A stretch of 47,077 nucleotides of DNA, taken from the NCBI GenBank assembly GCA_902782465.1, contig CACZNH010000030.1, positions 1 to 47,077 of the forward strand, in the 5' to 3' direction. Below, piece after piece: positions 5,124-41,216 of this stretch. How positions within the stretch are numbered: position 1 is the first letter of the stretch; the number at the start of each line of letters is the position of its first letter. A program made the translations under genes and the position numbers. The stretch comes from an uncultured Bacteroidales bacterium. Its GTDB lineage: Bacteria; Bacteroidota; Bacteroidia; Bacteroidales; Muribaculaceae. A model generated the notes under the pieces. That model saw only the letters and a list, made by a program, of their open reading frames with translations, was not told where the DNA came from and did no database searches.

Positions 5124-5226
5124 TAGGCTTTAGCTTATAGGTATTAGGCGTTAGGGATGCGGATGTCACCTAACGCCTAATACCTAATACCTAATACCTA
5201 AAGCCTAATACCTAAAGCCTAAAAAA
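5124..5226. repeat. Heptamer array with an 18-bp palindrome (array 1)
   Basis: The gap between the convergent holin-like and tdk genes is filled by period-7 units (CCTAATA, CCTAAAG, CCTAACG). The left arm TAGGTATTAGGCGTTAGG (5138-5155) is an exact inverted repeat of 5169-5186, around a 13-base core GATGCGGATGTCA (5156-5168). It could act as a two-way terminator, but there is no T run. Confidence 0.9.
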
Positions 5227-5856
5227 CTACTCGTCCTCAAACTTGATGGCACCGCGGCTGGTGCTCTCGATGCGACGGTTGCGCCAGCAACGGCGGCACA
5301 GGGCGACGTACTTGTCGTCACCGCCAATCTCGACCTGGTTACCGTCGGTGACGATGTTGCCGGTGCTATCGATGCGCGCGTTGATGATGGTCTTACGGCC
5401 GCAGGAGCAGGTGGACTTGATTTCCTCGATGGTGTCGGCAAGTTCAAACAGGCGGCGCGACCCCTCGAACATGTGGCTCTGGAAGTCGGTCCTCAGGCCG
5501 TAGCACACCACGTTCACGCCATAGTCGTCGACGATGCGCGCCAACTGGTCTATCTGCTGCTCCGACAGGAACTGCGACTCGTCGATGAGTATCCAGTCCT
5601 TGACCACCAGCGTGCGCTCAAACAGTTCCTTGAGCATTTCATACAAGTCGGTGTCAGGATAAATCCACGTGCACTTGCGCTCGATGCCGATGCGGGAGCG
5701 GATGACGTTATCCTTCTCGCGGTCATCGATGATGGGCTTCATGCACAGGTATTGCATGCCGCGCTCCTCAAAGTTGTAGGCTTGGGTCAACAGCATCGCC
5801 GTCTTGGCCGAGCCCATTGTCCCGTATTTGAAGTATAGTTTACCTATTCCGTTCAT
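5227..5856 (-). CDS. tdk: Thymidine kinase
   Basis: The 209-residue protein has the type II thymidine kinase layout. The P-loop is GTMGSAKT (12-19), DESQF (92-96) contains the probable catalytic E93, and the lasso/zinc site has four cysteines (C150, C152, C187, C190). It phosphorylates thymidine with ATP in the salvage pathway. YNFEERGMQ and SRIGIERK resemble the E. coli/Firmicutes-like branch rather than the well-known Bacteroides Tdk, whose P-loop reads roughly GSMFSGKT. Here the usual Gly of the SGK motif is Ala, which is unusual for the family. The TAG stop directly adjoins heptamer array 1. A possible -7 box TAACTTTG lies at 5954-5961. The long, GC-rich leader contains an imperfect hairpin near 5914-5933. 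Confidence 0.93.
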   Translation of the reverse strand: MNGIGKLYFKYGTMGSAKTAMLLTQAYNFEERGMQYLCMKPIIDDREKDNVIRSRIGIERKCTWIYPDTDLYEMLKELFERTLVVKDWILIDESQFLSEQQIDQLARIVDDYGVNVVCYGLRTDFQSHMFEGSRRLFELADTIEEIKSTCSCGRKTIINARIDSTGNIVTDGNQVEIGGDDKYVALCRRCWRNRRIESTSRGAIKFEDE

Positions 5857-6031
5857 GTCTTGTCGATAAAATGCTTGGTGTCAGTGTTATGCTTAATGGC
5901 TGGTCCTATTGCAGGGCCTCGCCTTGGCGTGGCCGTCCCATCTAGACCGACAACAAAGTTACAATTTTCCCGTCACTCGCGGGCACATTTTATCCACAAA
6001 AAGTTATTAACATGACGTCAGCCCCACTGCA

Positions 6032-6325
6032 TCAGCAGTTGTAGTCCACACAGGCACGGGCCTCTTTCACCTCGCTGATGATGGCGGCAGCAGCGACATG
6101 GGCGGGATGCTTGGCATAGGTGGCAACGTCGGCCAGCGTGGGCACGATGGCGGTCAGGACGATGTCCCAATCCTCGGCAGGATTCTCGTTCAGGGCAACC
6201 TCAATGCTCTGCAGCACATCAATCTGCTCGGGCAGCGCGTCAAGGGCTGCCTTGAAACGCAGGGCGGTTTCACGGCGCACCTCGTCGCTGCCCTGCAGTT
6301 TAAACATTACAATATGCTTGGTCAT
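6032..6325 (-). CDS. Dabb family protein (stress-responsive alpha/beta barrel)
   Basis: This 97-residue single-domain protein begins MTKHIVMFKL and follows the Dabb (ferredoxin-like alpha/beta barrel) pattern, with a helix KAALDALPEQIDVLQSIEV and a strand DIVLTAIVPTLADVATYAKHPAHVAAA. Members form dimeric barrels; most have no known reaction. The start codon stands three bases from a perfect (TTTTCAG)10 array, so its 5' region is made of repeats. The gene may be read through from the ribosomal operon or from a promoter inside the array. No normal -7/-33 pair is visible. Confidence 0.88.
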   Translation of the reverse strand: MTKHIVMFKLQGSDEVRRETALRFKAALDALPEQIDVLQSIEVALNENPAEDWDIVLTAIVPTLADVATYAKHPAHVAAAAIISEVKEARACVDYNC

Positions 6326-6328
6326 AAT

Positions 6329-6450
6329 TTTTCAGTTTTCAGTTTTCAGTTTTCAGTTTTCAGTTTTCAGTTTTCAGTTTTCAGTTTTCAGTTTTCAGAT
6401 GCGGATGACCAACTTCTAACTCCTCACTCCTAACTCCTCACTCCTAACTA
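6329..6450. repeat. (TTTTCAG)10 tract, core and CTCCTAA array (array 2)
   Basis: Ten perfect copies of TTTTCAG (6329-6398) are followed by the core ATGCGGATGACCA (6399-6411) and then period-7 units of the ACTCCTA/ACTCCTC type up to 6450. The same three-part layout, inverted, is seen at 9156-9238. Confidence 0.95.
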
Positions 6451-6457
6451 AAAGAAA

Positions 6458-8159: not shown

Positions 8160-9155
8160 ATGGCAGAAACAGTCAATATCAGGGAGTTGAATGACCTGAT
8201 TGCAAGTAAGAGTAATTTCGTGAATATGATTCGCCAGGGTATGGACCAGACCATCGTGGGCCAGAAGCACCTCGTGGACTCGCTGCTCATCGCGCTGCTC
8301 GCCAACGGGCACGTGCTGCTCGAGGGTGTCCCCGGTCTCGCCAAGACCAAGGCCATCAGCACCCTGGCGTCGCTGATTGACGCACGCTTCTCGCGCATCC
8401 AGTTCACCCCCGACCTGCTCCCCGCCGACGTGGTGGGTACGATGATTTACAGCATCAAGAAGGAGCAGTTCGAGGTGAAGAAGGGCCCGGTATTTGCCAA
8501 CTTCGTCCTTGCCGACGAGATTAACCGTGCCCCGGCCAAGGTGCAGAGCGCCCTGCTCGAAGCCATGCAGGAACGTCAGGTGACCATCGGCGAACAGACC
8601 TTCAAACTCGATGACCCCTTCCTGGTGCTTGCCACCCAGAACCCCATTGAGCAGGAAGGCACCTATCCCCTGCCCGAGGCCCAGGTGGACCGTTTCCTGA
8701 TGAAGGTGCTCATCGGCTATCCCAGCAAGAGCGAGGAGAGCGACATCATCAAGATGAACATCGCCCCCGACCCAGTCGAGGTACGCCCCATGGTCACGCC
8801 CGCCGACATCGTTGACACGCGCAAGGTGGTTCAGCAGATCTACATCGACGAGAAGATCCAGAAATATATCGTGGACATCGTGTTTGCCACCCGCTTCCCG
8901 GGCGACTACGGCATGAATGACCTCAAGAGCATGATTTCGTTCGGTGCATCGCCCCGCGCATCCATCAACATGGCATTGGCATCCAGGGCATACGCCTTCC
9001 TGCGCAACCGCGGCTATGTCATTCCCGAGGACGTGCGTGCCGTTTGCCACGATGTGATGCGTCACCGCCTGGGCCTGAGCTATGAGGCCGAGGCCAACAA
9101 CATCACTGCCGACGAAATCATCAGCAACATCCTTGACAAGATAGCAGTTCCCTAA
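8160..9155 (+). CDS. moxR: MoxR family AAA+ ATPase
   Basis: The 331-residue AAA+ protein carries Walker A GVPGLAKT (56-63; Ala before Lys is normal for MoxR) and Walker B VLADE (E120), followed by INRAPAKVQSALLEAMQE and a sensor-type motif ATQNPIEQEGTYPLPEAQ. The C-terminal lid domain has RASINMALASRAYA. MoxR ATPases work as chaperones that load or activate VWA-domain partners. Here it leads the aerotolerance cluster, in the same order as in Bacteroides fragilis. It is followed by heptamer array 3, which begins right after the TAA. Confidence 0.96.
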   Translation: MAETVNIRELNDLIASKSNFVNMIRQGMDQTIVGQKHLVDSLLIALLANGHVLLEGVPGLAKTKAISTLASLIDARFSRIQFTPDLLPADVVGTMIYSIKKEQFEVKKGPVFANFVLADEINRAPAKVQSALLEAMQERQVTIGEQTFKLDDPFLVLATQNPIEQEGTYPLPEAQVDRFLMKVLIGYPSKSEESDIIKMNIAPDPVEVRPMVTPADIVDTRKVVQQIYIDEKIQKYIVDIVFATRFPGDYGMNDLKSMISFGASPRASINMALASRAYAFLRNRGYVIPEDVRAVCHDVMRHRLGLSYEAEANNITADEIISNILDKIAVP

Positions 9156-9238
9156 TTAGTTAGGAGTTAAGAGTTAGAAGTCAGGAGTTAGCATCCGCTA
9201 ACTACTGACAACTGACAACTGAAAACTGAAAACTAAAA
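9156..9238. repeat. Heptamer array with GCATCCGC core (array 3)
   Basis: Units AGTTAGG/AGTTAAG/AGTTAGA lead to TTAGCATCCGCTAA (core at 9191-9198), then ACTGACA and ACTGAAA units. Read on the minus strand it has the same layout as 6329-6450. It fills the whole gap from the moxR stop to the next ATG. Confidence 0.93.
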
Positions 9239-9239
9239 A

Positions 9240-10118
9240 ATGGATACTAATGAGTTATTGCGCAAGGTCCGCAAGATTGAAATCAAGACCAAGGGCCTGT
9301 CGCAGAACATATTTGCCGGCGAGTACCACTCGGCCTTCAAGGGCAGGGGTATGACCTTCAGCGAGGTGCGCGAGTACCAGTATGGTGACGACGTGCGCGA
9401 CATCGACTGGAACGTCACGGCCCGCTACAACCGCCCCTATGTGAAGGTCTATGAAGAGGAACGCGAACTCACGGTGATGCTCCTTGTCGACGTCAGCGGC
9501 AGCAAGGACTTTGGCGCCGTGGGTGTCGCCAAGCGTGAGATGATGGCCGAAATCGGTGCCACCATCGCCTTCTCGGCTATCCAGAACAACGACAAGGTGG
9601 GCGTCATCTTCTTCAGCGACAAGGTGGAGAAATTCATCCCGCCCAAGAAGGGTCGCAAGCACATCCTGCTCGTCATCCGCGAACTGCTCGACTTCCAGCC
9701 CGAAAACACCGGCACCGACATCAACATGGTGCTGGAATACATGACCGGCGCCTTGAAGAAACGCTGCACCACCTTCCTGGTAAGCGACTTCATCGACGAA
9801 CACGACTACAGCAAGGCGTTGTCCATCGCCAACCACAAGCACGACGTCATCGCTGTGCAGGTCTATGACAAGCGCGAGGCACAGCTTCCCGACGTGGGCC
9901 TGATGCGTGTGCGTGACGCCGAACGCGGCACCCTCAAGTGGGTGAACACCGGCAGCAAGCGCGTGCGCGACGCCTATAGCCGCTGGTGGTACAACCAGCA
10001 GCAGATGATGGGCAGCACGCTGCAGCGCTGCAACGTCGACCTGGCGAGTGTAGCAACCGACGAGGACTACGTATCAGCACTGATGGGACTGTTCAAGAAC
10101 CGAGGAGTGAGGAGTTAG
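9240..10118 (+). CDS. DUF58 domain protein (VWA-like) of the Bat cluster
   Basis: The 292-residue cytosolic protein has the DUF58 hallmark SEVREYQYGDDVRDIDWNVT (41-60) and a MIDAS-like DVSGS (84-88) in a VWA fold. DUF58 proteins are encoded next to MoxR and are thought to be its partners. The C-terminus is unusual: the last codons, encoding RGVRS, and the TAG stop lie inside the repeat array that fills the downstream gap. The native end was probably extended or replaced by repeat sequence. No membrane segment is seen. Confidence 0.95.
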   Translation: MDTNELLRKVRKIEIKTKGLSQNIFAGEYHSAFKGRGMTFSEVREYQYGDDVRDIDWNVTARYNRPYVKVYEEERELTVMLLVDVSGSKDFGAVGVAKREMMAEIGATIAFSAIQNNDKVGVIFFSDKVEKFIPPKKGRKHILLVIRELLDFQPENTGTDINMVLEYMTGALKKRCTTFLVSDFIDEHDYSKALSIANHKHDVIAVQVYDKREAQLPDVGLMRVRDAERGTLKWVNTGSKRVRDAYSRWWYNQQQMMGSTLQRCNVDLASVATDEDYVSALMGLFKNRGVRS

Positions 10119-10222
10119 TTAGAAGTTAGAAGTTAGGAGTTAGGAGTTAGAAGTTAGAAGTTCACTTTTCTAGATATTCTAGATTCTCTAGCTTTTCTAG
10201 AGACTAGGGACTAAAAGCTAAA
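10103..10222. repeat. Composite array of heptamers and TCTAG nonamers (array 4)
   Basis: GAGGAGT and AGTTAGA/AGTTAGG heptamers (10103-10160) are followed by nine-base units TCTAGATAT, TCTAGATTC, TCTAGCTTT, TCTAGAGAC (about 10170-10205), then GGGACTA-type heptamers. It overlaps the 3' end of the DUF58 gene. Confidence 0.88.
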
Positions 10223-10226
10223 AATC

Positions 10227-11183
10227 ATGTCACAACATGTGAGACATATCATGATGACTGCCACCCTGCTGCTGGCTACCATGACAGCGGCGCTGGGCGG
10301 CAACGTCACCTTCAAGGCTAAGCTCGACAGCGCCACACTGCTCATGGGCAAGACCACGACCTTGCACCTGGAAATCACCCAGGACAAGCAGGCACGCGGC
10401 TTCTTCCCCAACGAGCAGGCCGACACGTTGAGCGCCATGGTCGAGATTGCCGGACGCCCTGCCGCCGACACCATCGACCTGGACAACAACCGCATCCAGA
10501 TTAACCGTGACCTCATCATCCAGAGCTTTGACTCGGGCCTGTGGGTCATCAAGCCCATCCCCTACGTCATCAACGGCGATACCGCCTTCTGCAACCAGCT
10601 CACCCTCAAGGTGCTGCCCGTTGACGTGAGCAAGATGAAGGACATTCACGACATCAAGCCTGTCGAGGAAGTGCCCTTTAACCTGCTGGACTGGCTCCCC
10701 GACTACTGGTGGGCATGGCTGCTGGCACTGTTGCTGATTGGCGCAGGCATCTGGGCTTACCGCAAGTATTACAAGAAGGGCATCAACCCGTTGAAACCCA
10801 GCAAGAAGCGTCTGCCGCCCTACGAGGAGGCGATGATTAACCTGCAGAACCTCAAGGCTGCCCAACTGTGGCAACGTGGCCAGGAGAAGGAGTATTTCAC
10901 GGGATTGACCGACATCCTGCGCGTGTATATCGACCGCCGTTTCCACATCAACGCTGTGGAGATGACCTCGTCGCAGATTATCGACACGTTGAAAAAGAAC
11001 GACGAAACCAAGGCGGTGAACGAGCAGTTGGAGATGATTCTTGAGGTCGCCGACATCGTGAAGTTTGCCAATGCCCGTCCGCTTGCCGACGACAACGAGG
11101 TGGCCTACCAGCGTGCCGTGAACTTTGTCGAGGCAACCCGCCCTGTTGAACAACTTGAAAAGAAAGAGGAGGTGAAGAAATGA
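10227..11183 (+). CDS. BatD-like single-pass membrane protein of the Bat cluster
   Basis: The 318-residue protein has a signal peptide, best seen if translation starts at M9 or M10 (MMTATLLLATMTAALGG). An Ig-like extracytoplasmic domain (about 25-145) resembles the start of BatD proteins. One membrane helix lies at about 165-182 (WWAWLLALLLIGAGIWAY), followed by a cytoplasmic helical domain ending in a charged tail. Its position between the DUF58 gene and batA is conserved in Bacteroidetes. It overlaps batA by four bases, so the two are translationally coupled. The exact role is unknown; it probably links the periplasmic and cytoplasmic parts of the Bat complex. Confidence 0.8.
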   Translation: MSQHVRHIMMTATLLLATMTAALGGNVTFKAKLDSATLLMGKTTTLHLEITQDKQARGFFPNEQADTLSAMVEIAGRPAADTIDLDNNRIQINRDLIIQSFDSGLWVIKPIPYVINGDTAFCNQLTLKVLPVDVSKMKDIHDIKPVEEVPFNLLDWLPDYWWAWLLALLLIGAGIWAYRKYYKKGINPLKPSKKRLPPYEEAMINLQNLKAAQLWQRGQEKEYFTGLTDILRVYIDRRFHINAVEMTSSQIIDTLKKNDETKAVNEQLEMILEVADIVKFANARPLADDNEVAYQRAVNFVEATRPVEQLEKKEEVKK

Positions 11184-12175
11184 TGAACCTTGCTCATCCA
11201 GGATGGCTGTGGCTCCTGCCCGTGCTGATGATTCCGCTCATCGCATGGTACATCTATAGCCAAGACAAGAACGAACCCGAGATGAACGTGTCGTCAACAC
11301 GCGCGTTCGACGGCCTGGGCACGAGCTGGAAGGTGTGGCTCAAGCATTTTTCTTTTGCACTCAAGCTGGGCGCACTGGCTTGCCTCATCGTCATCCTGTG
11401 CCGCCCGCAGACCAAGGACAGCTGGTCCACCAGCGACGTGGAGGGTACCGACATCGTCCTCGCCCTTGACGTGTCCACCAGTATGCTCGCCAAGGATTTC
11501 TCACCCAACCGCTTCGAGAGTGCCAAGAAGGTGGCCACACAGTTCGTCAGCGGCCGTGACCATGACAATATCGGCCTGGTGCTGTTTGCCGGCGAGAGTT
11601 TCACCCAGGTGCCCATGACGATGGACAACGCCACGCTCGTCAATGCCATCGGCTTAACCGAAATCGGTGCCCTGGAGGACGGTACTGCCATCGGTGACGG
11701 TATCGCCACCGCCATCAACCGCATCCGCGACGGCAAGGCCAAGAGCAAGAGCATTATCCTGCTCACCGACGGTTCCAACAACACTGGCGTCGTCGCCCCC
11801 AACACCGCTGCCGACATCGCCCGCAAGTACGGTATCAAGATTTATACTATCGGCGTGGGCAGCAACGGCACTGCCGAGTATCCCGTAGCCATCGACTATG
11901 CCGGCAACATCCAGTATCAGCGCATGCCCGTGGTCATCGACGAGGCCACCCTGAAGACCATCGCTTCAAGGACGGGCGGCAAGTACTTCCGCGCCACCTC
12001 GGGCAGCGTGCTGCGCAGCATCTTCAAGGAAATCGACCAGTTGGAGAAGACCCACATGGACGTGCAGCGCTTCACCCACACCGAGGACCACTACGAGCCC
12101 TGGGCACTGCTCCTGCTGGGATTGCTGCTGTTGAGCCTGTTGCTCGACTACACATTGTTGAGGCATATCCCATAA
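11180..12175 (+). CDS. batA: BatA, VWA-domain membrane protein
   Basis: The 331 residues start with the typical Bat N-terminal helix AHPGWLWLLPVLMIPLIAW. A second helix (about 57-75) and a VWA domain with MIDAS DVSTS (97-101) follow, then LLTDGSNNTGVVAP and TIGVG. A C-terminal helix LLLLGLLLLSLLLDYTLL closes the protein. In B. fragilis the bat genes support growth after oxygen exposure. It starts inside the stop of the preceding gene. Repeat array 5 begins at its stop codon. Confidence 0.95.
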   Translation: MMNLAHPGWLWLLPVLMIPLIAWYIYSQDKNEPEMNVSSTRAFDGLGTSWKVWLKHFSFALKLGALACLIVILCRPQTKDSWSTSDVEGTDIVLALDVSTSMLAKDFSPNRFESAKKVATQFVSGRDHDNIGLVLFAGESFTQVPMTMDNATLVNAIGLTEIGALEDGTAIGDGIATAINRIRDGKAKSKSIILLTDGSNNTGVVAPNTAADIARKYGIKIYTIGVGSNGTAEYPVAIDYAGNIQYQRMPVVIDEATLKTIASRTGGKYFRATSGSVLRSIFKEIDQLEKTHMDVQRFTHTEDHYEPWALLLLGLLLLSLLLDYTLLRHIP

Positions 12176-12272
12176 GTTAGAAGTTAGGAATTAGGAGTTA
12201 GGAGTTTTTTACGAGAACCAAAAACTAAAAACTAAGGACTAAGGACTAAAAACTAAGGACTAAGGACTAAAG
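12175..12272. repeat. Heptamer array (array 5)
   Basis: AGTTAGA/AGTTAGG units run to a TTTTTTACGAGAACCAAAAA centre (about 12204-12223), then ACTAAAA and ACTAAGG units to within six bases of the batB start. Confidence 0.9.
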
Positions 12273-12277
12273 AAATT

Positions 12278-13366
12278 ATGATCAATTTTGCTCATCCGCA
12301 ATATTTCTACCTGCTGCTCCTGCTGCCCGTGCTGGTGCTGCTGTTCCTGTGGAACCGCCGCGATCGCCACAAGCGTCTGGAGCGTTACGGCAAGCGCGCC
12401 TCTATCGAGCCGCTGATGCCCGAGGTGTCGCGCTACAAGCCATGGATACGCCTGGTGCTGGAACTGCTGTTGCTCACGATGGTCATCGTGGTGCTCGCCC
12501 GTCCGCGTGCCGGCTCCAGCAAGACGACGACCAAGGTGCACGGCATCGAGGTGATGGTCGCTGTTGACGTGTCCAACTCAATGAACGCGTCCAGCACAGA
12601 CAATCCCCAGGACGTGAGCCGCCTGCAGCGTTCCAAAATGATTCTGCAGAAACTCATCGACCGCTTGGAGAACAATAAGGTGGGACTTATCGTGTTTGCA
12701 GGTAATGCCTACATGCAGATGCCCATGACCAGCGACGCTGCCTCGGCCAAGCTGTTCCTGAACGGCATCAACACCAATATGGCACCCACCCAGGGCACCG
12801 CCATCGGTGCCGCCATCAACCTGGCGATGAACGGCTTCTCGCAGAGCAAGAAGTCGCAGAAAGCCATCATTATCATCACCGACGGCGAGAACTTTGAGGA
12901 TGATGCCGTCAGCGCTGCAAAGGAGGCTGCCAAGTTGGGCGTTCAGGTCGATGTCATCGGTGTGGGCTCCACCACAGGCGCTCCCATCCCCATGGATGGC
13001 GGCTACCTGACCGACGACGAGGGTAATCCCGTGACCACCTACCTCAACGAGGAGATGGCACAGAAGATTGCCAATGCCGGCAAGGGCGTCTATATCTCGG
13101 GCACGGCATCAGATGCTGTCTCTACCCTGCAGGAAACGCTCGACAAGCTGGCCAAGAGCGACCTTGCCGCAGTGAGCTACACGCAGCACGACGAACAGTT
13201 CCCCGTGTTCGCCACCATCGCCCTGCTGTTGCTGCTGGGCCTGCTGCTGTTGCTCGAACGCAAGAATCCGTGGCTCAAGAAGTATAATTTCTTTACTAAG
13301 GAAAAGAATCAGAACACTGTCAACCATGAGACTGACAAGAAACAAGATAACACTGACGAGAAATAA
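12278..13366 (+). CDS. batB: BatB, VWA-domain membrane protein
   Basis: The 362-residue paralogue of BatA has an N-terminal helix (YFYLLLLLPVLVLLFLW), a second helix (about 58-74), and a VWA domain with MIDAS DVSNS (97-101). The motif IIIITDGENFEDDAV and a C-terminal helix ATIALLLLLGLLLLLE follow. The two MIDAS motifs sit at the same residue number in BatA and BatB, as expected for paired subunits. Its 3' end overlaps batC by 41 bases in another frame. Its C-terminal KKQDNTDEK tail is polar and probably cytoplasmic. Confidence 0.95.
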   Translation: MINFAHPQYFYLLLLLPVLVLLFLWNRRDRHKRLERYGKRASIEPLMPEVSRYKPWIRLVLELLLLTMVIVVLARPRAGSSKTTTKVHGIEVMVAVDVSNSMNASSTDNPQDVSRLQRSKMILQKLIDRLENNKVGLIVFAGNAYMQMPMTSDAASAKLFLNGINTNMAPTQGTAIGAAINLAMNGFSQSKKSQKAIIIITDGENFEDDAVSAAKEAAKLGVQVDVIGVGSTTGAPIPMDGGYLTDDEGNPVTTYLNEEMAQKIANAGKGVYISGTASDAVSTLQETLDKLAKSDLAAVSYTQHDEQFPVFATIALLLLLGLLLLLERKNPWLKKYNFFTKEKNQNTVNHETDKKQDNTDEK

Positions 13367-14192
13367 CCTGCTCACAGTGGCACTGGCCCTGCTGTTGGCA
13401 TTGGGCACTACCCTACCCTCACTGGCAGCGGACAAGGGTCCCAAGATGACCAAGCAGGAACGCGTGTGCCTGCGCAACGGCAACAAGCTGTATGAGAAAA
13501 AACGCTATGCCGAGGCCGAAGTCGAATACCGCAAGGCCCTGCAGGCCAACCCTGCCAGCGAGAAAGCCCAGTTCAACCTTGCCACTGCTCTCATGCGGCA
13601 GGGAAGCGTGACCTCGCAGGAAAACGATGACAAGAATCCGATGAAACAGGCCGAAGGTCTGCTCACCAACCTTGCCAAGGGCGCTCAGGACAAACAGCTG
13701 CGTGGCAAGGCCTGCTACGACCTGGGCAACATCGCCTACGGCCGCCAGCAGTATGACCAGGCCGTTGAGTTTTACAAGCATGCCCTGCGTTGCAACCCAG
13801 ATGACGACCAGGCACGTCACAACCTGCGCCTAGCCCAGCTCAAGAAGCAGCAACAGGACAAAAACAAGGACAACAAGGACCAGAATCAAGATAAGAATCA
13901 AGACAAGGACCAAAACAAAGACCAGAACAAGGACCAGAACAAGGACCAGAACAAAGATAACCAAGACCAGAATAAGGACAAACAAAATCAAGACAAGCAG
14001 AACCAAGACCAACAGAATCAGGATAAACAGGACCAGCAAAAACAGCAACAGCAGGGCGGCATGAGCCAGCAGAACGCCGAGCAGGTGCTCAAGGCCATGC
14101 AGGACCGCGAGCGTGCCACCCAGCAGCGCATCAACGCCCAACAGGCGCAACAGCAGCGCCACGAACGCCAGCGCACCAACAAAAAGTGGTAA
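13326..14192 (+). CDS. batC: BatC, secreted TPR protein with Lys/Asp/Gln/Asn tract
   Basis: The 288-residue protein has a signal peptide (about 1-35, core LLTVALALLLALGTTLPSLA) and TPR repeats at about 46-165 (NGNKLYEKKRYAEAEVEYRK, then ACYDLGNIAYGRQQYDQAVE). Residues 174-243 are a low-complexity tract of K, D, Q and N made largely from a 12-base DNA repeat encoding NKDQ. A Gln-rich end follows. TPRs suggest it scaffolds the VWA subunits in the periplasm. The start lies within the end of batB; no better start is seen downstream. Confidence 0.92.
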   Translation: MRLTRNKITLTRNNLLTVALALLLALGTTLPSLAADKGPKMTKQERVCLRNGNKLYEKKRYAEAEVEYRKALQANPASEKAQFNLATALMRQGSVTSQENDDKNPMKQAEGLLTNLAKGAQDKQLRGKACYDLGNIAYGRQQYDQAVEFYKHALRCNPDDDQARHNLRLAQLKKQQQDKNKDNKDQNQDKNQDKDQNKDQNKDQNKDQNKDNQDQNKDKQNQDKQNQDQQNQDKQDQQKQQQQGGMSQQNAEQVLKAMQDRERATQQRINAQQAQQQRHERQRTNKKW

Positions 14193-14199
14193 TCCCCAA

Positions 14200-14231
14200 G
14201 CTAAGATCTAAGGTCTAAAGTCTAAAAACTA
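14200..14231. repeat. Short heptamer array (array 6)
   Basis: Four units, CTAAGAT CTAAGGT CTAAAGT CTAAAAA, run straight into the batD start codon. Confidence 0.85.
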
Positions 14232-16043
14232 ATGAAGCGAATCATCAACATAGCAATCCTGCTCTTGTTCGTCATCGCGGCCCAGGCGGCATCGTTTACC
14301 GTCGAGGCGCCGCGCCAGGTAGTCGAGGGCAACAAATTCAACGTCACGTTTGTGCTCACCAACGGTGAGGGCAGTAACTTTGCACCCCCCGAAGTGACCG
14401 GCGCCAAACTCATCTACGGCCCCAGCGTGTCGCACAGCTACAGCTCGTCGTGGGTCAACGGCAAGTCGAGCAGCAGTTCGAGTGAGGAGTACACCATGAT
14501 TTATAAGGCTACCGGAACCGGCAAGTGCCACATCGGCGCGGCATCCATCACTGTCGGGGGCAAGCACTATGCAACCAAGGCCTTCACCATCGAGGTGCTG
14601 CCCTCGGGCAGCAGCCAGCCCAGCCAACAGACGCAGCGCACACCCGGTGCCCCGACGCAATACAGCGACCCCATGACGCAGACTGCCGATAAGGAGGTGA
14701 GCGGTAAGGACCTGTTTGTGCGCATCGAGATGTCCAAGCCACGCGTCTATGAACAGCAGGCGGTTGTGTGCACCATCAAGCTGTACACCAAGTATCAGGT
14801 GTCGCAGTTCATTCCCACCATCCAGCCCTCGTTTGACGGCTTCCTCATTGAGGAAATACCGATGCAGCCCAGCCTCAACAAGGTCGAAACCTTCAACGGG
14901 CAGCAGTATATGGTGGCAGTGCTCAAGAAGTGCATCCTCTATCCCCAGCAGAGCGGCGACCTCACCATCACGTCGGGTAACTATGACGTGAGCGTGGTGC
15001 AGTTCGATACCTTCCGCAGCATCTTCGGCACCATCAGCAAGCCCGTGGAGAAAGACCTTAAGGTCACCAGCAACAAGGCCACCATCCACATTCTGCCGCT
15101 GCCCGAGCCCAAACCCGCATCGTTTACGGGCGCCGTGGGAAAATTCAACGTCACCACCGACGTGAAGCCTGCCACGGGCCTCAAGACCTACAGCGCCGCC
15201 ACCTACCGCTACACTATCCTCGGCACGGGTAACATCAAGTACATCAAGGCGCCCGAAATCAAGTTCCCCGACCAGTTCGACGTCTATGACCCCAAAACCG
15301 ATGTCCAGGTCAATGACGGTGCCGGCGACATGAGCGGCAAGGTGGTGATGGACTACACGTTCATCCCCCAATATGCCGGCGAATTTGACATTCCCGACAG
15401 CGAATTCTCCTACTTTGACCCTGATCAGGGCAAGTATGTGACCATCACCGTTCCCGGACGCCACCTTTCCGTAGCCAAGGGCGAGGGCCAGCCCAGCAAT
15501 CACTACCGCATGAAGAATATGGACATCCGTCCCATCAAGAGCGGTGACCTGGGGCTGAAGAAGTCACACGGCTACATCGTGGACAGCTGGACCTACTGGC
15601 TGTGGTTCCTGTTGCCGCTGCTGGCTGTGATTGCACTGTTGCTGTACTACCGCAAGCAGTTGAAGGAACGTGCCGACGTGCGCCGTATGCGTTCCAAACG
15701 CGCCAGCAAGGTCGCTCAGCGCCGCCTGAAGACCGCCCGCGGCTTTGCCACACGCAACGACCGCAGCGGCTTCTATGCCGAGATGCTCAACGCCCTGTGG
15801 GGCTACATGAGCGACAAGCTGTCGATTCCCGTGAGCGAGCTGAGCAAGGACAACATCAATGCTGAGCTGGAACAGTACGGCATCGACGAGCAGTTGCGCA
15901 AGGCGTCGATGGACCTCATTGACAAGTGCGAGTTTGCCCAGTATGCCCCAGAGCTGGCATCGGGCGACATGAATGCCGTGCTCGACGAGGCAGCCGACAT
16001 CATCGACCGTCTGGAGAGTGTGAAAAGAGGAGTTAGAAGTTAG
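14232..16043 (+). CDS. batD: BatD, oxygen-tolerance family membrane protein
   Basis: The 603-residue protein has a signal peptide (MKRIINIAILLLFVIAAQAA) and several Ig-like extracytoplasmic domains typical of BatD (about 22-440, including VRIEMSKPRVYEQQAVVCTI). One membrane helix lies at about 455-475 (YWLWFLLPLLAVIALLLYY), followed by a basic cytoplasmic helical domain (RKQLKERADVRRMR and onward). Size and layout fit the family. As in the DUF58 gene, the last codons read RGVRS and the TAG stop belongs to the adjacent repeat array, so the original C-terminus has probably been altered by array growth. Confidence 0.95.
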   Translation: MKRIINIAILLLFVIAAQAASFTVEAPRQVVEGNKFNVTFVLTNGEGSNFAPPEVTGAKLIYGPSVSHSYSSSWVNGKSSSSSSEEYTMIYKATGTGKCHIGAASITVGGKHYATKAFTIEVLPSGSSQPSQQTQRTPGAPTQYSDPMTQTADKEVSGKDLFVRIEMSKPRVYEQQAVVCTIKLYTKYQVSQFIPTIQPSFDGFLIEEIPMQPSLNKVETFNGQQYMVAVLKKCILYPQQSGDLTITSGNYDVSVVQFDTFRSIFGTISKPVEKDLKVTSNKATIHILPLPEPKPASFTGAVGKFNVTTDVKPATGLKTYSAATYRYTILGTGNIKYIKAPEIKFPDQFDVYDPKTDVQVNDGAGDMSGKVVMDYTFIPQYAGEFDIPDSEFSYFDPDQGKYVTITVPGRHLSVAKGEGQPSNHYRMKNMDIRPIKSGDLGLKKSHGYIVDSWTYWLWFLLPLLAVIALLLYYRKQLKERADVRRMRSKRASKVAQRRLKTARGFATRNDRSGFYAEMLNALWGYMSDKLSIPVSELSKDNINAELEQYGIDEQLRKASMDLIDKCEFAQYAPELASGDMNAVLDEAADIIDRLESVKRGVRS

Positions 16044-16112
16044 GAGTTAGGAGTTAGGAGTTAGGAGTTAGGAGTTGGCAGATGCCAACTAGGGACTAGG
16101 GACTAGAAACTT
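16028..16112. repeat. Heptamer array with perfect core palindrome (array 7)
   Basis: Seven GAGTTAG-type units overlap the batD stop. They lead into the palindrome AGTTGGCAGATGCCAACT (16073-16090; 8-bp arms), then AGGGACT units. Confidence 0.93.
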
Positions 16113-16118
16113 AAACAT

Positions 16119-16889
16119 ATGAAACGATTCATCATCACCATATTGTTAACCGTGCTGGCGCTGCCCATAGTGGCTGCCAATGCCAACATCGACAAGGCGA
16201 ACCAGGCCTATAAGCAGGAACTCTACAACGAGGCGCTGCAACTTTACCTCCAGGAGGCCAAGGAGACGGGTGTGTCGTCAGCACTGTACTGCAACATCGG
16301 CGACACCTACTATCGCCTCAAGGACAACGTCCATGCCGTTCTCTACTACGAGCGAGCCCTGTTGCTCGACCCGTCGAACAATGACGCACGATTCAACCTG
16401 GAGTTTGTGCGCGGCAAGATGCAGCTGCCCGACGATGCCGGTGAGTCATGGTTCAGCAACTGGGTGGACCAGATGGTGAGCCGCCTGTCGAGCAACGCAT
16501 GGGCCATCATCGCCATCATCACCTTCTTGCTGTTCCTCGCCGGAGTGGCCATCTACCTGTTTATGGACAACGTGCTGATGAGAAAAATCGGCTTTTTTGG
16601 CGGTGCTGTGCTGATTGTGGCCAGCATCCTGGCCAATCTCGCCGCTTTCCACGTCCACAACAAGGCGACGGGCGCCAGCGGAGCCATCATCATGCCCGAA
16701 AAGGTGACCTTAAGCACCGCTCCTCGCGAGCCGCGCGACAAGGAGGAAGAAGCCTTTGAACTGATGCAGGGCACCCGCGTCGAGATTGTCGATTCCATCG
16801 CCGACAAGGCCAGCGGCAAGTGGCTGCAAGTGTCCACCGCAGGCGGCCACAAGGCATGGATTAACGCCACCAACGTCGAAATTATCTAA
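16119..16889 (+). CDS. batE: BatE, TPR and SH3-like membrane protein
   Basis: The 256-residue protein has a signal peptide (MKRFIITILLTVLALPIVAANA) and TPR repeats at about 25-100 (ANQAYKQELYNEALQLYLQE; GDTYYRLKDNVHAVLYYERA). Two membrane helices lie at about 128-148 and 154-178, followed by a bacterial SH3-like domain (about 195-256, GTRVEIVDSIADKASGKWLQ and AWINATNVEII). This is the standard BatE layout. It closes the bat set and is followed by a PAP2 gene 58 bases later. Confidence 0.93.
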   Translation: MKRFIITILLTVLALPIVAANANIDKANQAYKQELYNEALQLYLQEAKETGVSSALYCNIGDTYYRLKDNVHAVLYYERALLLDPSNNDARFNLEFVRGKMQLPDDAGESWFSNWVDQMVSRLSSNAWAIIAIITFLLFLAGVAIYLFMDNVLMRKIGFFGGAVLIVASILANLAAFHVHNKATGASGAIIMPEKVTLSTAPREPRDKEEEAFELMQGTRVEIVDSIADKASGKWLQVSTAGGHKAWINATNVEII

Positions 16890-16945
16890 ACCTAAAACCA
16901 GAAACTAGAGACTAAAAACCAGAGACTAGAAACTAGAGACTAAAC
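16890..16945. repeat. Heptamer array (array 8)
   Basis: Units of the ACTAGAG/ACTAAAA/ACTAGAA type with period 7 fill the gap between batE and the PAP2 gene. Confidence 0.85.
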
Positions 16946-16947
16946 CA

Positions 16948-18202: not shown

Positions 18203-18206
18203 ATTC

Positions 18207-18289
18207 TCTGTTTAGTTTCTAGTTTCTAGTCCCTAATTTCTAGTTGGCGTATGCCCAACTATTATCTAATATCTGATATCTATTAACTA
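18207..18289. repeat. Heptamer array with GGCGTATGCCC core (array 9)
   Basis: AGTTTCT-type units surround the hairpin TAGTTGGCGTATGCCCAACT (18241-18260). ATCTAAT/ATCTGAT units follow, up to the RND stop codon. Confidence 0.85.
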
Positions 18290-30647: not shown

Positions 30648-33041
30648 ATGAAGAAATCCTTAATTCTCCTGCTGGCGCTGGCTTCGAGCCTCGGAATGAG
30701 CGCCAGTGAAGCCGACCTGGTGATTCCCAGCTCGGTGCATGAGTTCAGCTTCCTTCACGTGGGATTCATAGTTACCATCCTAGGTATGCTGTTCGGCGTC
30801 TATCACTTCATGAAGACCAAGAGCCTGCCCGTGCATCCCGCCATGCGCGAGATTGGTGAGGTCATCTTCAAGACCTGCTCCACCTACCTCAAGCAGCAGG
30901 GACGCTTCCTGGCTATCCTGTTCATCTTCATCGGCATCGTGGTGGCCTTCTACTTTGGCGGCCTGAGCCACATGAAGGTGTGGGAAGTGCTCATCATCCT
31001 GTTATCGACGGTAATCGGTATGCTCGGCTCCTATGCCGTGGCAGCCTACGGTATCCGCATGAACACCTACGCCAACGCACGCATGGCGTTCGCCTCGCTG
31101 CGCCGCGACCCGCTGCGCCTGCTCAATATCCCTTTGAATGCGGGTATGAGCATCGGTGTGATGCTGGTGTGCGTCGAGCTGTTCATCATGCTGGTCATCC
31201 TGCTGCTCGTCCCCTGTGAGCTGGCAGGTGTCTGCTTCATCGGCTTCGCTATCGGTGAGAGCCTCGGCGCCAGTGCACTGCGCATCGCCGGCGGTATCTT
31301 CACCAAGATTGCCGACATCGGCAGCGACCTGATGAAGGTGGTCTTCAAGATTGGTGAGGACGACCCCCGCAACCCTGGTGTGATTGCCGACTGCACGGGT
31401 GACAACGCCGGTGACAGTGTCGGCCCCACTGCCGACGGCTTTGAGACCTACGGCGTGACGGGTGTGGCACTCGTGTCGTTCATCCTGCTGGCCGTGAACA
31501 ACCTCGACATCCAGCGCGACCTGCTCGTGTGGATCTTCTCGATGCGTATCCTCATGGTCATCACCTCGATTGTAGCCTATTGGATCAACAAGGGCCTGTG
31601 CAAGGCAAAATATGCCGGCAATGACACCCTCGATTTCGAGAAACCGTTGACCAGCCTCATCTGGATTGCATCGGCGCTGAGTATCGCCGTGACCTATATC
31701 GTATCCTACTTCCAGCTCGCTCCCGTGGGTGAAATGGTGGGCAACACCAACCTGTGGTGGCAGCTGGCAAGCGTCATCTCGCTGGGAACCCTGGGCGCCG
31801 CCCTCATCCCCGAGATCACCAAGATTTTCACCTCGCCCAAGAGTGGCCACGTGCAGGAGGTTGTCAAGGCCTCGCACCAGGGTGGTGCCTCGCTGAACAT
31901 CCTCAGCGGCTTCGTGGCAGGTAACTTCTCGGGCTTCTGGACCGGTCTGGCCTTCGCCCTGCTGATGTTCGCCGGTTATGCCTTCTCGATTGACATCCCC
32001 GAGACGATGATGGCCTATCCCGCCATCTTCGCATTCGGCCTCGTGGCCTTCGGTATGCTGGGCATGGGTCCCGTGACCATCGCCGTTGACAGCTACGGCC
32101 CCGTGACTGACAACGCCCAGAGCGTCTATGAGCTCTCCCTCATCGAGGAAGTGCCCAACAAGGACGAGGAAATTGAGCGTGACTTCGGCTTCAAGCCCGA
32201 CTGGGAGAAGTCCAAGCACTACCTGGAGGAGAACGACGGCGCCGGCAACACCTTCAAGGCCACTGCCAAGCCCGTGCTCATCGGTACCGCCGTTGTGGGT
32301 GCCACCACGATGATTTTCTCCATCATCCTCGTGATTCAGAAGACCCTCGGCGTGGATCCCGCCCTGCTGCTGAACCTGCTGAACCCCTACACCATCATCG
32401 GCTTCCTGCTGGGTGGTATGGTCATCTACTGGTTCACCGGTGCTTCGACCCAGGCCGTTACCGTCGGCGCCAACCGTGCCGTAGCCTTCATCAAGGACCA
32501 CATCAAGCTCGACCCCAACGCTCCCAAGAAGGCCGACACCAAGTCGTCGGTAGAGGTGGTGAAGATCTGCACCCAGTATGCTCAGAAGGGTATGTTCAAC
32601 ATCTTCCTGGCCATCTTCATCGGTGGCAACAACGCCGTTTCGCTCTTCGTGTCCTACCTCATCTCGATTGCCCTGTTCGGTCTGTTCCAGGCCGTGTTCA
32701 TGGCCAATGCCGGTGGCAGCTGGGACAACAGCAAGAAGGTTGTCGAGGTTGACCTCGACCTCAAGGGCACCGACCTGCACGACGCATCGGTAGTCGGCGA
32801 CACCGTGGGTGACCCCTTCAAGGACACCTCGTCGGTATCGTTGAACCCCATCATCAAGTTCACCACCCTGTTCGGTCTGCTCGCCATGGAGATGGCTATC
32901 AGCGAGAACTTCCGTGAGTTTGCTCCCTGGGTGGGTATCATCTTCGTGCTCGTCGCTATCTACTTCGTATGGCGCTCCTTCTACCGCATGCGCATCGACG
33001 AGAAAATCGACGACATCCTCAACGCCTACAAGAAGGACTAA
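30648..33041 (+). CDS. hppA: Membrane-bound (ion-pumping) pyrophosphatase
   Basis: The 797-residue integral membrane protein carries the M-PPase substrate-site motifs: EDDPRNPGVIADCTGDNAGD, then SYGPVTDNAQSVYE, then VVGDTVGDPFKDTSSVSLNP. It hydrolyses pyrophosphate in the cytoplasm and pumps Na+ and/or H+ outward. The Bacteroidetes form has an N-terminal extension with a signal-like helix, as here. The motif around the potassium-dependence position reads GNTFKATAK, with Lys where K+-dependent enzymes usually have Ala. Ion choice and K+ need cannot be settled by reading. Single gene with its own promoter and terminator. Confidence 0.97.
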   Translation: MKKSLILLLALASSLGMSASEADLVIPSSVHEFSFLHVGFIVTILGMLFGVYHFMKTKSLPVHPAMREIGEVIFKTCSTYLKQQGRFLAILFIFIGIVVAFYFGGLSHMKVWEVLIILLSTVIGMLGSYAVAAYGIRMNTYANARMAFASLRRDPLRLLNIPLNAGMSIGVMLVCVELFIMLVILLLVPCELAGVCFIGFAIGESLGASALRIAGGIFTKIADIGSDLMKVVFKIGEDDPRNPGVIADCTGDNAGDSVGPTADGFETYGVTGVALVSFILLAVNNLDIQRDLLVWIFSMRILMVITSIVAYWINKGLCKAKYAGNDTLDFEKPLTSLIWIASALSIAVTYIVSYFQLAPVGEMVGNTNLWWQLASVISLGTLGAALIPEITKIFTSPKSGHVQEVVKASHQGGASLNILSGFVAGNFSGFWTGLAFALLMFAGYAFSIDIPETMMAYPAIFAFGLVAFGMLGMGPVTIAVDSYGPVTDNAQSVYELSLIEEVPNKDEEIERDFGFKPDWEKSKHYLEENDGAGNTFKATAKPVLIGTAVVGATTMIFSIILVIQKTLGVDPALLLNLLNPYTIIGFLLGGMVIYWFTGASTQAVTVGANRAVAFIKDHIKLDPNAPKKADTKSSVEVVKICTQYAQKGMFNIFLAIFIGGNNAVSLFVSYLISIALFGLFQAVFMANAGGSWDNSKKVVEVDLDLKGTDLHDASVVGDTVGDPFKDTSSVSLNPIIKFTTLFGLLAMEMAISENFREFAPWVGIIFVLVAIYFVWRSFYRMRIDEKIDDILNAYKKD

Positions 33042-33042
33042 T

Positions 33043-33093
33043 TAGGCTTTAGGCGCTAGCCCAACTAAGAACTAAGGACTAAGGACTAAGAAC
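33043..33093. repeat. Heptamer array after hppA (array 11)
   Basis: AGGCTTT and ACTAAGG-type units surround a GGCGCTAGCCC core (about 33052-33062). The array starts at the hppA stop. Confidence 0.85.
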
Positions 33094-33123
33094 CAACAAG
33101 GGCGCGAGCCCCCGTCAATAACC

Positions 33124-39185: not shown

Positions 39186-41042
39186 TTACATGTACAGTTT
39201 TTGGTTTTCGAAGTCCACCTCGCGGTCGAGGAGGGTGACGAAGTCGTCGAGGACCTCGCGGTCGATGTCGCCCAGGGTGTACTCGTTCTCGGCGTCCTCG
39301 CGGATGAGGGCAATCCACTCGCGGCGGGCGGTGACGTAGTCCTGATGGACGCGTTCCACGTCTTCCTGGGTCAGTTTATCGATGCCGTAATAGTCCAGAA
39401 TATAACGGTAACTCCAGGACCAGCGCAACTCATTATAATTATTGTCGATATCCTTGAAACGGGCATTGACAGCCTCAATGGTATTGAGCTTGCCGCTGAT
39501 GATGTCGGCGATGATGTTGTCCTCAGCACTCTGCGGCATGAGCAGACCAGCCAGGTCAATCCAGTTACCTTCACCAGCAGTGGTAGTTGGCGGCACAGGC
39601 GCGTGGCGCTTGAGCACGGCACCCATATAGATGCGCAACGCCATGTCATAGTACTTGATGCCCTTGTGCAACAGCGGGGCCTTGATGACATACTCGTGGT
39701 AGTTATAGGTGCTCACCTTGTCGCCGCTTGCAGCACGCAGGTTCTCCAGAATCTTCTTGCCTCGCAACACCTCGCTGATGGTAAAGGGACTGAGCCAGTC
39801 GAAGTTGACCACACTGCGGTGCTCGCCCTTGTAACGCTTGTCGCGCTTGGGCCACTTGCGGATGTCGCGGTACAGGCCCACGGTGGCAAAGTTGCGTCCC
39901 GGTTTCAGGTACATCGTGTCGCCATAGGCAATGAGGTAAGAGAAAGGCAGGTCACGCGTGTCAGGATGATACATCAGCTTGCCGAACAGCACACTGAACG
40001 AGCCGATGTTGGCCGGCAACAGCAGATAGGCACCGCTGGCGGTTTTGCAGCCACGCTCCAGGTAGCCGTAATGCATGGGGCCCATCTTGTAAGCGTGGTT
40101 GCTGAAGTTGGTCGCCGAGCCGGCATTATAGAACGAGTACATGGCACCGATGAGCAGCGAACTCTTGTGGTGGCTCACCGTGAACGGGCCGCAGAAGGCG
40201 GCGCATGCCTCGCCATTGGACATATAGCTGTTGGCAAAGAAGACGCTGCTGGCAGCGGTGAAACCGTTTTCCAAGTGGCAGGACTCGCCGACGAAGCAAT
40301 CAGTCAGTTTGACGCTGCCAATCAGGTGGGAGCCGCCGCTGATGATGGTATTCTCGCAGATGACGCCCGTGCGAATGACGATGGGATTCTCCATCGAGCT
40401 ACTGATGGTGCACTCGCTCAAGCGCGACACACCGCAAATCTGGCAACCGTCGTCAATGACCGCGTTGATGATAACACCAGTATTGACAACACGAACATGG
40501 TTACCAATGGTGCTGCACTCGGGGCGGGAGGCAGCGACAGACTCCGCTACCATACGCCTGATGGCCTCCATCATCGGTTTGTTGTCACCATGCTTCACCA
40601 TCAAAGCCGCGAGTTGGCTACTCAGGTCACTGAGCAACAACAGGTTGCCGTCGCCAACCTCGTTAAGCACCGAGATGGTATGGCCCTGTCCGTAGTTGGG
40701 TGTGCCCTGCGTGTCGATGGTGCTCACGTTGGAGATATAGCAGCCGTCACCGATGGTCACATTGTTCAGGTAGTTGCCGATATTCTCAATCAGGCAGTTG
40801 TCGCCGATGGTCACATTGCGCAGCGTGGCGTTATAGATGCCGCAGTTCTTCACAAAACCATCGGTAATCTCCACCGTTCCGCTGCCGTTGCCGAGTTTTG
40901 CCCAGCCATAGAACTGCACGCGGTGGCAACGGCAGACTTCAAAGTCGTCGGTCACCATCACGTCGTTCCAATCCTGTGCCCAGCAGTCCTTGCCCTTCAG
41001 TATCTCGATTTCTTTTGTAGTCAGGTGTCTATATTCTTTCAT
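39186..41042 (-). CDS. DUF4954 family protein (left-handed beta-helix, acyl/nucleotidyltransferase-like)
   Basis: The protein (about 618 residues) begins MKEYRHLTTKEIEILKGKDCWAQDW. Its first 330 residues contain hexapeptide-like repeats of a left-handed beta-helix (NATLRNVTIGDNCLIENIGN; VTIGDGCYISNVSTIDTQGT; GVICENTIISGGSHLIGSV). The remaining half is helical. DUF4954 proteins occur in most Bacteroidales; the fold suggests sugar-nucleotide or acyl transfer, but no reaction is established. I chose the start at 41042; alternatives at 41057 and 41075 would add a few residues. A -7 box TACCTTTG lies at 41073-41080. Confidence 0.9.
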   Translation of the reverse strand: MKEYRHLTTKEIEILKGKDCWAQDWNDVMVTDDFEVCRCHRVQFYGWAKLGNGSGTVEITDGFVKNCGIYNATLRNVTIGDNCLIENIGNYLNNVTIGDGCYISNVSTIDTQGTPNYGQGHTISVLNEVGDGNLLLLSDLSSQLAALMVKHGDNKPMMEAIRRMVAESVAASRPECSTIGNHVRVVNTGVIINAVIDDGCQICGVSRLSECTISSSMENPIVIRTGVICENTIISGGSHLIGSVKLTDCFVGESCHLENGFTAASSVFFANSYMSNGEACAAFCGPFTVSHHKSSLLIGAMYSFYNAGSATNFSNHAYKMGPMHYGYLERGCKTASGAYLLLPANIGSFSVLFGKLMYHPDTRDLPFSYLIAYGDTMYLKPGRNFATVGLYRDIRKWPKRDKRYKGEHRSVVNFDWLSPFTISEVLRGKKILENLRAASGDKVSTYNYHEYVIKAPLLHKGIKYYDMALRIYMGAVLKRHAPVPPTTTAGEGNWIDLAGLLMPQSAEDNIIADIISGKLNTIEAVNARFKDIDNNYNELRWSWSYRYILDYYGIDKLTQEDVERVHQDYVTARREWIALIREDAENEYTLGDIDREVLDDFVTLLDREVDFENQKLYM

Positions 41043-41072
41043 AGTTGGGTTATGCATGATTGAATGTCGCGG

Positions 41073-41101
41073 CAAAGGTAATGTATTTGCTGTGTATCAA
41101 A
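41073..41101 (-). promoter_or_regulatory. Probable promoter of the DUF4954 gene
   Basis: TACCTTTG (41073-41080) has TTTG (41098-41101) 17 bases upstream on the minus strand, slightly shorter than usual spacing. Confidence 0.55.
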
Positions 41102-41103
41102 GC

Positions 41104-41139
41104 ACAATCCCTATCATTTTAATATTTGATAGGGATTGT
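41104..41139. other. 13-bp inverted repeat between GH125 and DUF4954 genes
   Basis: ACAATCCCTATCA (41104-41116) and its exact inverse (41127-41139) enclose a 10-base AT loop. On the plus strand AAAATCTTTTTT follows. It may end transcription of the mannosidase gene or bind a regulator near the DUF4954 promoter. Confidence 0.7.
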
Positions 41140-41150
41140 AAAATCTTTTT

Positions 41151-41216
41151 TAGGCTTTAGGATTGCGGATACCACCTAAAGCCTAATGCCTAACACCTAA
41201 AGCCTAAAACCTAATC
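41151..41216. repeat. Heptamer array supplying the GH125 stop codon (array 12)
   Basis: CCTAAAG, CCTAATG, CCTAACA and CCTAAAA units lie around ATTGCGGATACCA (41162-41174), with short inverted arms AGGCTTTAGG/CCTAAAGCCT. The stop TAG of the mannosidase gene is the first TAG of the array. Confidence 0.92.

Follow-up and report, generated by a model that had tools for sequence, protein, structure and literature searches.

Cyanobacterial genomes carry short tandemly repeated repetitive (STRR) heptamers, with several units per genome, and it is to these, in form, that the heptamer arrays described here can be likened. The arrays belong to an uncultured gut bacterium of the Bacteroidales (Muribaculaceae; assembly GCA_902782465.1; 3.13 Mb in 45 contigs), and eleven gene gaps hold them in the window, the whole stretch of 47,077 nucleotides analyzed on contig CACZNH010000030.1 (our C30). 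Intergenic heptamer repeats of this general sort are already known in other phyla. In the accessible text of MacGregor 2015 (PMC4679880), TAACTGA direct repeats are reported from marine Beggiatoaceae, some cyanobacteria, and five Bacteroidetes, where 147 of 170 sets point toward a start codon and the largest single class ends 1 nt before it. GGGAATC and GGGGA(C/T)T heptamers are described from Xanthomonas and Nostoc in the available portion of Rehm 2015 (PMC4692102), which also mentions heptanucleotides of Calothrix, while Geobacter metallireducens, according to the available portion of PMC2700814, possesses dispersed element families with four or five tandem heptanucleotides. A search of the open-access literature on heptamers in Bacteroidetes, Prevotella, and Muribaculaceae returned at most the first two of these papers. 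A preliminary description of the window had stated that no functional description was known for the group; this agrees with the literature on the group itself, but heptamers of the same polarity are on record in other phyla, as far as the accessible text of the same two papers goes.

Here, our analysis revealed that the arrays are polar arms, that their unit is set by the gene border they face, that part of the sites carry one of two conserved centers, that one gene junction occurs in filled and empty states, and that orthologous junctions hold unlike units. The border-dependent units, the mirror-oriented arms, and the conserved centers flanked by some arrays had been overlooked in the preliminary description. 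We favor, with a probability of roughly 0.55, the reading that the arrays form the arms of short intergenic elements scattered through the genome, which grow by slippage and are sifted by translation; we infer slippage, dispersal, and selection as the processes at work.

Three samples were compared. The own-genome sample comprised 447 kb (the window and positions 1-200000 of each of contigs C1 and C2; 83% coding), the near-relative sample 29 loci (512 kb), and the genus-mate sample 32 stretches, after 8 of 40 under 9 kb were left out. The closest named relatives, by the DUF58 protein, were mostly metagenome genomes from the rumen or other herbivore guts, labeled Muribaculaceae, Prevotellaceae, Porphyromonadaceae, or Bacteroidales. 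The near-relative sites clustered on one operon and are therefore not independent, although their array units nevertheless differ; one locus (L058, 86% identity) was left out of this set. Gene starts were taken from an ad hoc codon-usage caller, so that distances to starts are approximate.

In the own-genome sample, 62 period-7 arrays were identified, 59 of them intergenic. Other periods from 4 to 13 gave 0 to 6 intergenic arrays each, and periods 14 and 21 gave 39 and 27, as multiples of 7. Among near relatives, 83 intergenic arrays had period 7 compared with 13 for period 9, the second commonest, and in genus-mates the count was 32 against 10 for the next period. Simulated sequence of matched dinucleotide frequencies (400 kb, stricter threshold) contained no period-7 array, and the pattern (ACTNANN)x3+ACT matched 484 times genome-wide, compared with 4 times for its reversed control (overlapping matches counted). 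These scans bore out the earlier proposal of a genome-scale family with fixed period 7 and variable units; the comparison of period 7 with other periods, fixed beforehand as one of two on which that proposal could fail, showed period 7 to dominate (59 versus at most 6). In the second, enrichment between co-oriented genes was present but modest (arrays in 41 of 170 co-oriented gaps versus 11 of 86 others; Fisher p 0.034, with the ad hoc gene calls). As a separate observation, period 9 ranked next after 7 and its multiples among the intergenic periods of all three samples, and period-9 arrays built on CTAGA occur in the window at 10166-10201 and 22474-22516 (TTTTCTAGA, TCTAGATAG). Intergenic period-7 arrays were also seen in loci of other genera (L062, L063, L066, L067, L070, and L080), with the units AATGCAT, AATTCTT, CTAACGT, TCATTAT, and GTTTAAA; L078, which at 94% identity belongs to the present clade, was counted in the far set of this period scan.

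When the units are read outward from the middle of the gap, they share the core CTNA (or CTAG), so that on one strand a gap reads as a TNAG arm, a center, and a CTNA arm. Two samples together gave 38 adjacent arm pairs: 35 followed this TNAG-then-CTNA order, 3 were of the same type, and none was reversed. In the positions outside the core, start-facing units (CTGAAAA, CTAAAAA, CTGACAA, CTAAGGA, CTTAAAA, and CTAGAAA) differ from stop-facing ones (CTAAAGC, CTAACTC, CTAACTT, CTAAACT, and CTAAAAC). Among arms within 40 nt of a border, the seventh base was A in 25/29 start-facing versus 3/29 stop-facing arms of the own genome (p 6e-9), in 32/35 versus 4/43 of the near relatives (p 4e-14), and in 15/16 versus 2/10 of the genus-mates (p 2e-4). 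The 29 start-facing arms of the own genome ended -12 to 40 nt from the start, 19 of them within 4 nt on either side, the 29 others being stop-facing. Stop-facing arms overlapped the called gene end in 13/29, 18/43, and 5/10 cases (own genome, near relatives, and genus-mates). The strand composition follows the same polarity: after stops, the G-richer strand is the coding one (sense G 0.28 and C 0.06-0.09 in own and near samples; 0.21 and 0.13 in seven genus-mate arrays), and start-side arrays have sense C of 0.17-0.21 and G of 0.07-0.15.

Arms in the arm-pair, border-distance, pairing, and other-genus tests were defined by the CTNA/CTAG core, which itself favors stop codons. A core-free test, which avoids this bias, was applied to 124 arrays in co-oriented gaps (39 own, 63 near, and 22 genus-mate). 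Read in the mRNA sense, 112 of the 124 consensus units contained a stop codon and 122 lacked ATG, GTG, and TTG; both properties were combined in 110 (35, 59, and 16 by sample), compared with 40.7 expected from base-shuffled units, and a stop without a start was found in 24% of 10,993 non-array 7-mers from gaps. Since 7 divided by 3 leaves 1, one stop per unit reaches all three frames. At 64 ATG starts that abut an array (three samples), A stood at -3 in 73%, compared with 45% at the 195 other ATG starts of the own genome; upstream, within -28 to -1, a further ATG lay in 4/64 versus 35/195. In Flavobacterium, a Bacteroidetes model whose mRNAs are without Shine-Dalgarno sequences, adenines at -3, -6, -12, and -13 promote initiation, according to the accessible text of PMC6847099.

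Two conserved centers were recognized. The class II center GGCGATAGTAATCGTACT was found at 39 own-genome sites with up to 2 mismatches (9 exact; none for the reversed control), and the class I center GCGGATGCC, together with two phased cores, at 37 (control none). All 60 inspected center loci, 30 of each class, were called intergenic. Within the genus, the class I center was present in 28 of 61 genomes, with one control match, and the class II center in 23 of 61, at three or more matches in 10; as the class II control itself matched 10 times in 9 genomes, single class II matches mean little. The search outside the genus, which covered the class I center, found it in none of 137 genomes from other genera of the family (148 searched, 11 of them of this genus). 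The first CTNA lay exactly 2 nt from GCGGATGCC in 12 of 20 matches and 1 nt away in 3, where 0-12 nt were allowed; the pattern used across the 61 genomes itself fixes the 2-nt spacing. The preferred class I unit varied by genome, being CTAAAGG in 7/15 for G211, CTAAAGC in 8/14 for G192, and, in G193, CTAACAA in 4 of 6 matches listed.

The arms are mirror-oriented, which could also mean that the sites are selected hairpins whose arms pair in RNA or single-stranded DNA with the center at the tip, acting as a terminator, an mRNA stabilizer, or a cruciform. Some centers, such as TTGGC-GGAT-GCCAA, are small hairpins in themselves, and measured against dinucleotide shuffles, 17 of the 35 paired sites showed the better fold (z below -2). 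Nine of the 30 class II sites inspected have a second, loosely matching half at a distance of about 13 nt, which makes up an imperfect ~50-bp inverted repeat flanked on either side by heptamer arms. However, the right arm of a site is no better a pairing partner than the right arms of other sites (duplex p 0.35 and 0.55), the fold is -17.0 with own arms and -16.9 with swapped ones, and arm lengths are uncorrelated (rho -0.03). Since left arms can pair with right arms generally through the shared core, the pairing looks generic and not tuned; these duplex and fold comparisons revealed no within-site covariation. A selected hairpin is thus not supported, and we regard it as unlikely. With regard to known structured RNAs, Rfam at its gathering threshold (the window and 20 of the 60 center loci) matched only tRNAs.

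In the window, a gap-by-gap scan flagged 11 of the 30 gaps of at least 20 nt, precisely the eleven named in the preliminary description, the one at 14200 included. Tandem Repeats Finder gave period-7 rows at 5168, 6329, 6411, 9204, 10117, 12175, 12216, 16028, 16895, 18213, 33063, and 41175. The gaps are as follows.

5124..5226, convergent gap: TNAG arm 5127-5154, center GGATGCGGATGTCAC 5155-5169, and CTNA arm 5170-5225; the arm parts adjoining the center pair perfectly, in a stem 16 bp or longer.
6326..6450, minus strand, gap between minus genes: (TTTTCAG)x10 at 6329-6398 (100% matches in Tandem Repeats Finder) faces the start of gene 6032-6325; then a center with GCGGATG and a stop-side CTAACTC-type arm 6416-6450, 59 nt from the next gene.
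9156..9239, plus strand, MoxR-DUF58 gap: AGTTAGG-type arm 9157-9191 past the stop, CATCCG, and ACTGACA/ACTGAAA arm 9198-9239 reaching the start.
10103..10226, plus strand, between DUF58 and the next bat gene: AGTTAGA/AGTTAGG arm extending from the gene end, the period-9 CTAGA stretch 10166-10201, and ACTAGGG/ACTAAAA arm 10197-10224.
12174..12277, plus strand, BatA-BatB gap: AGTTAGG arm 12174-12201 and ACTAAGG/ACTAAAA arm 12225-12273.
14193..14235, plus strand, BatC-BatD gap: start-facing CTAAGGT/CTAAAGT arm 14201-14235.
16028..16118, plus strand, BatD-TPR2 junction: AGTTAGG arm, which encodes the C-terminal RS of BatD and its stop codon, palindromic center GTTGGCAGATGCCAAC, and ACTAGGG arm reaching the start.
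16890..16947, plus strand, TPR2-PAP2 gap: start-facing ACTAGAG/ACTAAAA arm.
18203..18289, minus strand, gap between minus genes: start-facing TAGTTTC arm 18209-18243, GGCGTATGCC center, and repeats on the stop side.
33039..33099, convergent gap: TTAGGCT arm 33039-33059, CCCAA, and AACTAAG arm 33065-33092.
41151..41217, gap: TTAGGCTTTAGG, center ATTGCGGATACCAC, and CCTAAAG arm 41176-41217.

The region 8160-16889, which holds several of these arrays, codes for MoxR, DUF58, BatA/BatB-like, TPR, and BatD proteins. Arrays had been described as running from the stop codon of one gene almost to the start of the next; the gaps at 6329, 33043, and 41151 are only partly occupied, heptamer arms make up 2,522 of 71,718 intergenic bases, and most gaps are not filled by arrays. 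Elsewhere in the window, positions 134-3463 of the minus strand encode a large peptidase of the C10 family that also carries I69 inhibitor-like and dockerin type I domains (Pfam).

Genomes whose DUF58 proteins are 91-97% identical displayed unlike units and lengths at the same junctions, the MoxR-DUF58 gap, wherever positive, measuring between 16 and 193 nt. At the BatD-TPR2 junction, the two genes overlap by 4 nt in 19 of 27 genomes, an array fills the junction in 7, and one has a 17-nt gap with two heptamer-like units. In the filled genomes, the array provides the last residues of BatD and its stop codon. Mapped on trees of the flanking genes (L031, L033, and L054 left out; L057, with the 17-nt gap, scored empty), the filled state required 4 changes, at least 3 of them forced by well-supported branches, and was probably gained more than once, a single origin keeping some probability. 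The overlaps hypC-BatA (30/30) and BatB-BatC (29/29) were filled in no genome measured. The array multiples of 14, 21, and 28 given by Tandem Repeats Finder in the window, together with the differing units at one junction in sister genomes, fit slippage in 7-base steps, and the conserved centers point to dispersal of related elements. The earlier suggestion of a copying mechanism instead of common descent was half right.

Changes of unit and length from one sister genome to the next, the same multiples, and the over-representation of heptamers in many bacteria (earlier work, as cited in the accessible text of PMC4679880 and PMC4692102) would also be expected from purely mutational slippage without selection, in which heptamers expand wherever they are tolerated and the unit is random. 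This explanation is already disfavored, and we consider it quite improbable, for the unit is tied to the gene border in three samples, the arms stand in mirror order, part of the sites carry conserved centers, and the units are biased toward being start-free and stop-rich. Least probable of these alternatives is an active mobile or array-writing system, in which a trans-acting enzyme would recognize the constant center and insert or extend heptamers outward: the presence of the class I center in 28 of 61 genus genomes and in none of the 137 from other genera of the family, its exact 2-nt spacing to CTNA in 12 of 20 matches while preferred units vary by genome, and the filled and empty junctions speak for it, but many arrays are without a recognized center, genus-mate G001 has 204 array matches and no match to either center, the units within one genome are too varied for one template, and Y1 transposases on C11 and C13 are flanked by different, GC-rich repeats.

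Matches to Y1 (RAYT-like) transposases in the own genome lie at L131 (C11), L132 (C3), L133/L134 (C13), and L135 (C1). GC-rich palindromes unlike the heptamers flank the C11 and C13 copies; no period-7 array lies within ~1.5 kb of the C11, C3, and C1 matches, and the C13 copy, which is interrupted by stops, sits between two heptamer arrays that lie outside its own GC-rich repeats. As a mobilizer, a RAYT transposase was rejected, the flanking repeats being wrong or absent. The pair GCCTAAC/GTTAGGC resembles integron attC sites. This candidate was likewise rejected, since the integron integrase model TIGR02249 gave 6 matches, none above its cut-off (weak matches occurred likewise in 14 of 14 control genomes), and the order here, GTTAGGC and then GCCTAAC, is the reverse of that in attC. 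That the arrays form a two-armed element class, so far of one genus, in which a constant center fixes the phase while the unit is rewritten between species and between stop and start sides, is in our estimate a long shot; if true, it would imply active writing of 7-base units outward from the center, in a process that would also carry elements to new gene junctions.

In the reading that we favor, dispersed elements shaped by slippage and translation, elements would be copied from other sites into gene junctions new to them, and their arms would grow, shrink, and be rewritten through replication slippage, 7 nt per step. Selection on translation would decide which variants survive, those that disturb translation being lost. 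Past a stop codon, a T/G-rich array filled with stop codons may be tolerated, while the units persisting ahead of a start codon would mainly be those rich in A and in stops and free of starts; the A-rich start-side units would fit initiation through upstream adenines instead of Shine-Dalgarno pairing. The net effect could be translation punctuation, a fused stop-start being turned into a clean stop and a clean leader, and a dedicated regulator would be unnecessary. With many genomes of the genus in which one junction is empty or differently filled, slippage, dispersal, and translational selection should be separable.

Several results weigh against this reading. Antisense units are stop-rich and start-poor as well (93/124; 26, 52, and 15 by sample), reaching 15/22 in genus-mates compared with 16 in the sense orientation, so that sense translation alone cannot explain the core; stop codons as the only reason for it are a weakened proposal. 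Adenines at -6, -12, and -13 are hardly commoner before array starts than before other starts. Outside the genus (L078 left out), start-free units were no commoner than in shuffles (7/13 versus 9.4), and the seventh-base rule did not appear in four genomes from two further genera, A being found in 16/17 start-facing and 9/12 stop-facing arms of regions chosen with a pattern that requires A there and is thus biased; arm order in these genomes was TNAG-then-CTNA in 4 pairs, same-type in 4, and reversed in none. In the own genome, the 13 arms at a border distance above 40 nt showed no seventh-base split (start-facing, 3 with A and 5 without; stop-facing, 2 and 3). At the BatD-TPR2 junction, a single filled clade was at best weakly rejected (AU p 0.099 for protein and 0.045 for DNA). 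Finally, slippage is deduced from array multiples and from comparison between genomes, and no carrier of the elements was found.

Other repeats were observed in the same gaps. In several sister genomes, a short hairpin (TCCATTGCGCAATGGA-like or TTCAAGTTGC-AACTTGAA-like) directly follows the stop codon, ahead of the stop-side array, in the TPR2-PAP2 gap of L032, L036, L045, L046, and L060 and in the MoxR-DUF58 gap of L039, L044, L046, L052, L053, and L059. A second dispersed inverted repeat, AGACGCAAAATCTTGCGTCTC-like, shares gaps with heptamers at C1:12364-12489 and C2:36698-36792, and occurs in locus L224 immediately ahead of a class II center.

Compared with the described systems, the present arrays resemble heptanucleotide intergenic repeats of the TAACTGA and STRR kind in having intergenic tandem units of exactly 7 far above other periods. 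As far as the accessible text of PMC4679880 goes, the TAACTGA repeats are likewise intergenic and provided with stop codons in the forward frame, and in our frame TAACTGA becomes CTGATAA, a start-type unit. Most TAACTGA sets point toward a start; of the own-genome arms near a border, 29 face a start and as many a stop. That system differs in having one unit, with 2-6 copies per set in that genome, and one inverted repeat among 170 sets, and its available description includes no conserved center or separate stop-type unit. TAACTGA was not found as a repeated unit here, where CTGAAAA, CTAAAAA, CTGACAA, and CTAAGGA are the commonest start-facing units; CTGATAA stands outside the commonest units listed but turns up as a lone terminal unit (e.g. 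C1 27754-27781). The heptamers of Rehm 2015 share, in the available portion of PMC4692102, the strand polarity also found here, the G-rich strand being coding just after stops (stop-codon overlaps included) and non-coding just before starts, as well as much length and sequence variation between relatives. Unlike the present arrays, they form G-quadruplexes and prefer four units, and no border-dependent unit, center, or empty junction is described in that portion; here, G-tracts of at least 3 per unit were not the rule, GGG being present on either strand in 2 of 31 distinct consensus units. The Geobacter elements, named putative regulatory elements in the accessible text of PMC2700814, differ in that one has 49 copies of a GC-rich unit, inside genes too, and another class has 16 sites with consensus MTYCTGA. 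The degenerate heptanucleotide repeats in P6b of the Nostoc tRNA-Leu intron also pair into a hairpin and vary in copy number but occupy one site, within an intron (PMC3488679, available portion). REP/RAYT systems share dispersed palindromic intergenic repeats (cf. PMC3733652) and the presence of Y1 transposases in this genome, whereas a repeat flanking its own transposase was not found in heptamer form at the C11, C3, C1, and C13 matches, the C11 and C13 repeats being GC-rich. Border-dependent units, conserved centers, and filled and empty junctions are not described in the accessible text of PMC4679880, PMC4692102, and PMC2700814, and the border-dependent unit brings what is reported for Beggiatoaceae, Xanthomonas, and Nostoc under a single polarity rule.

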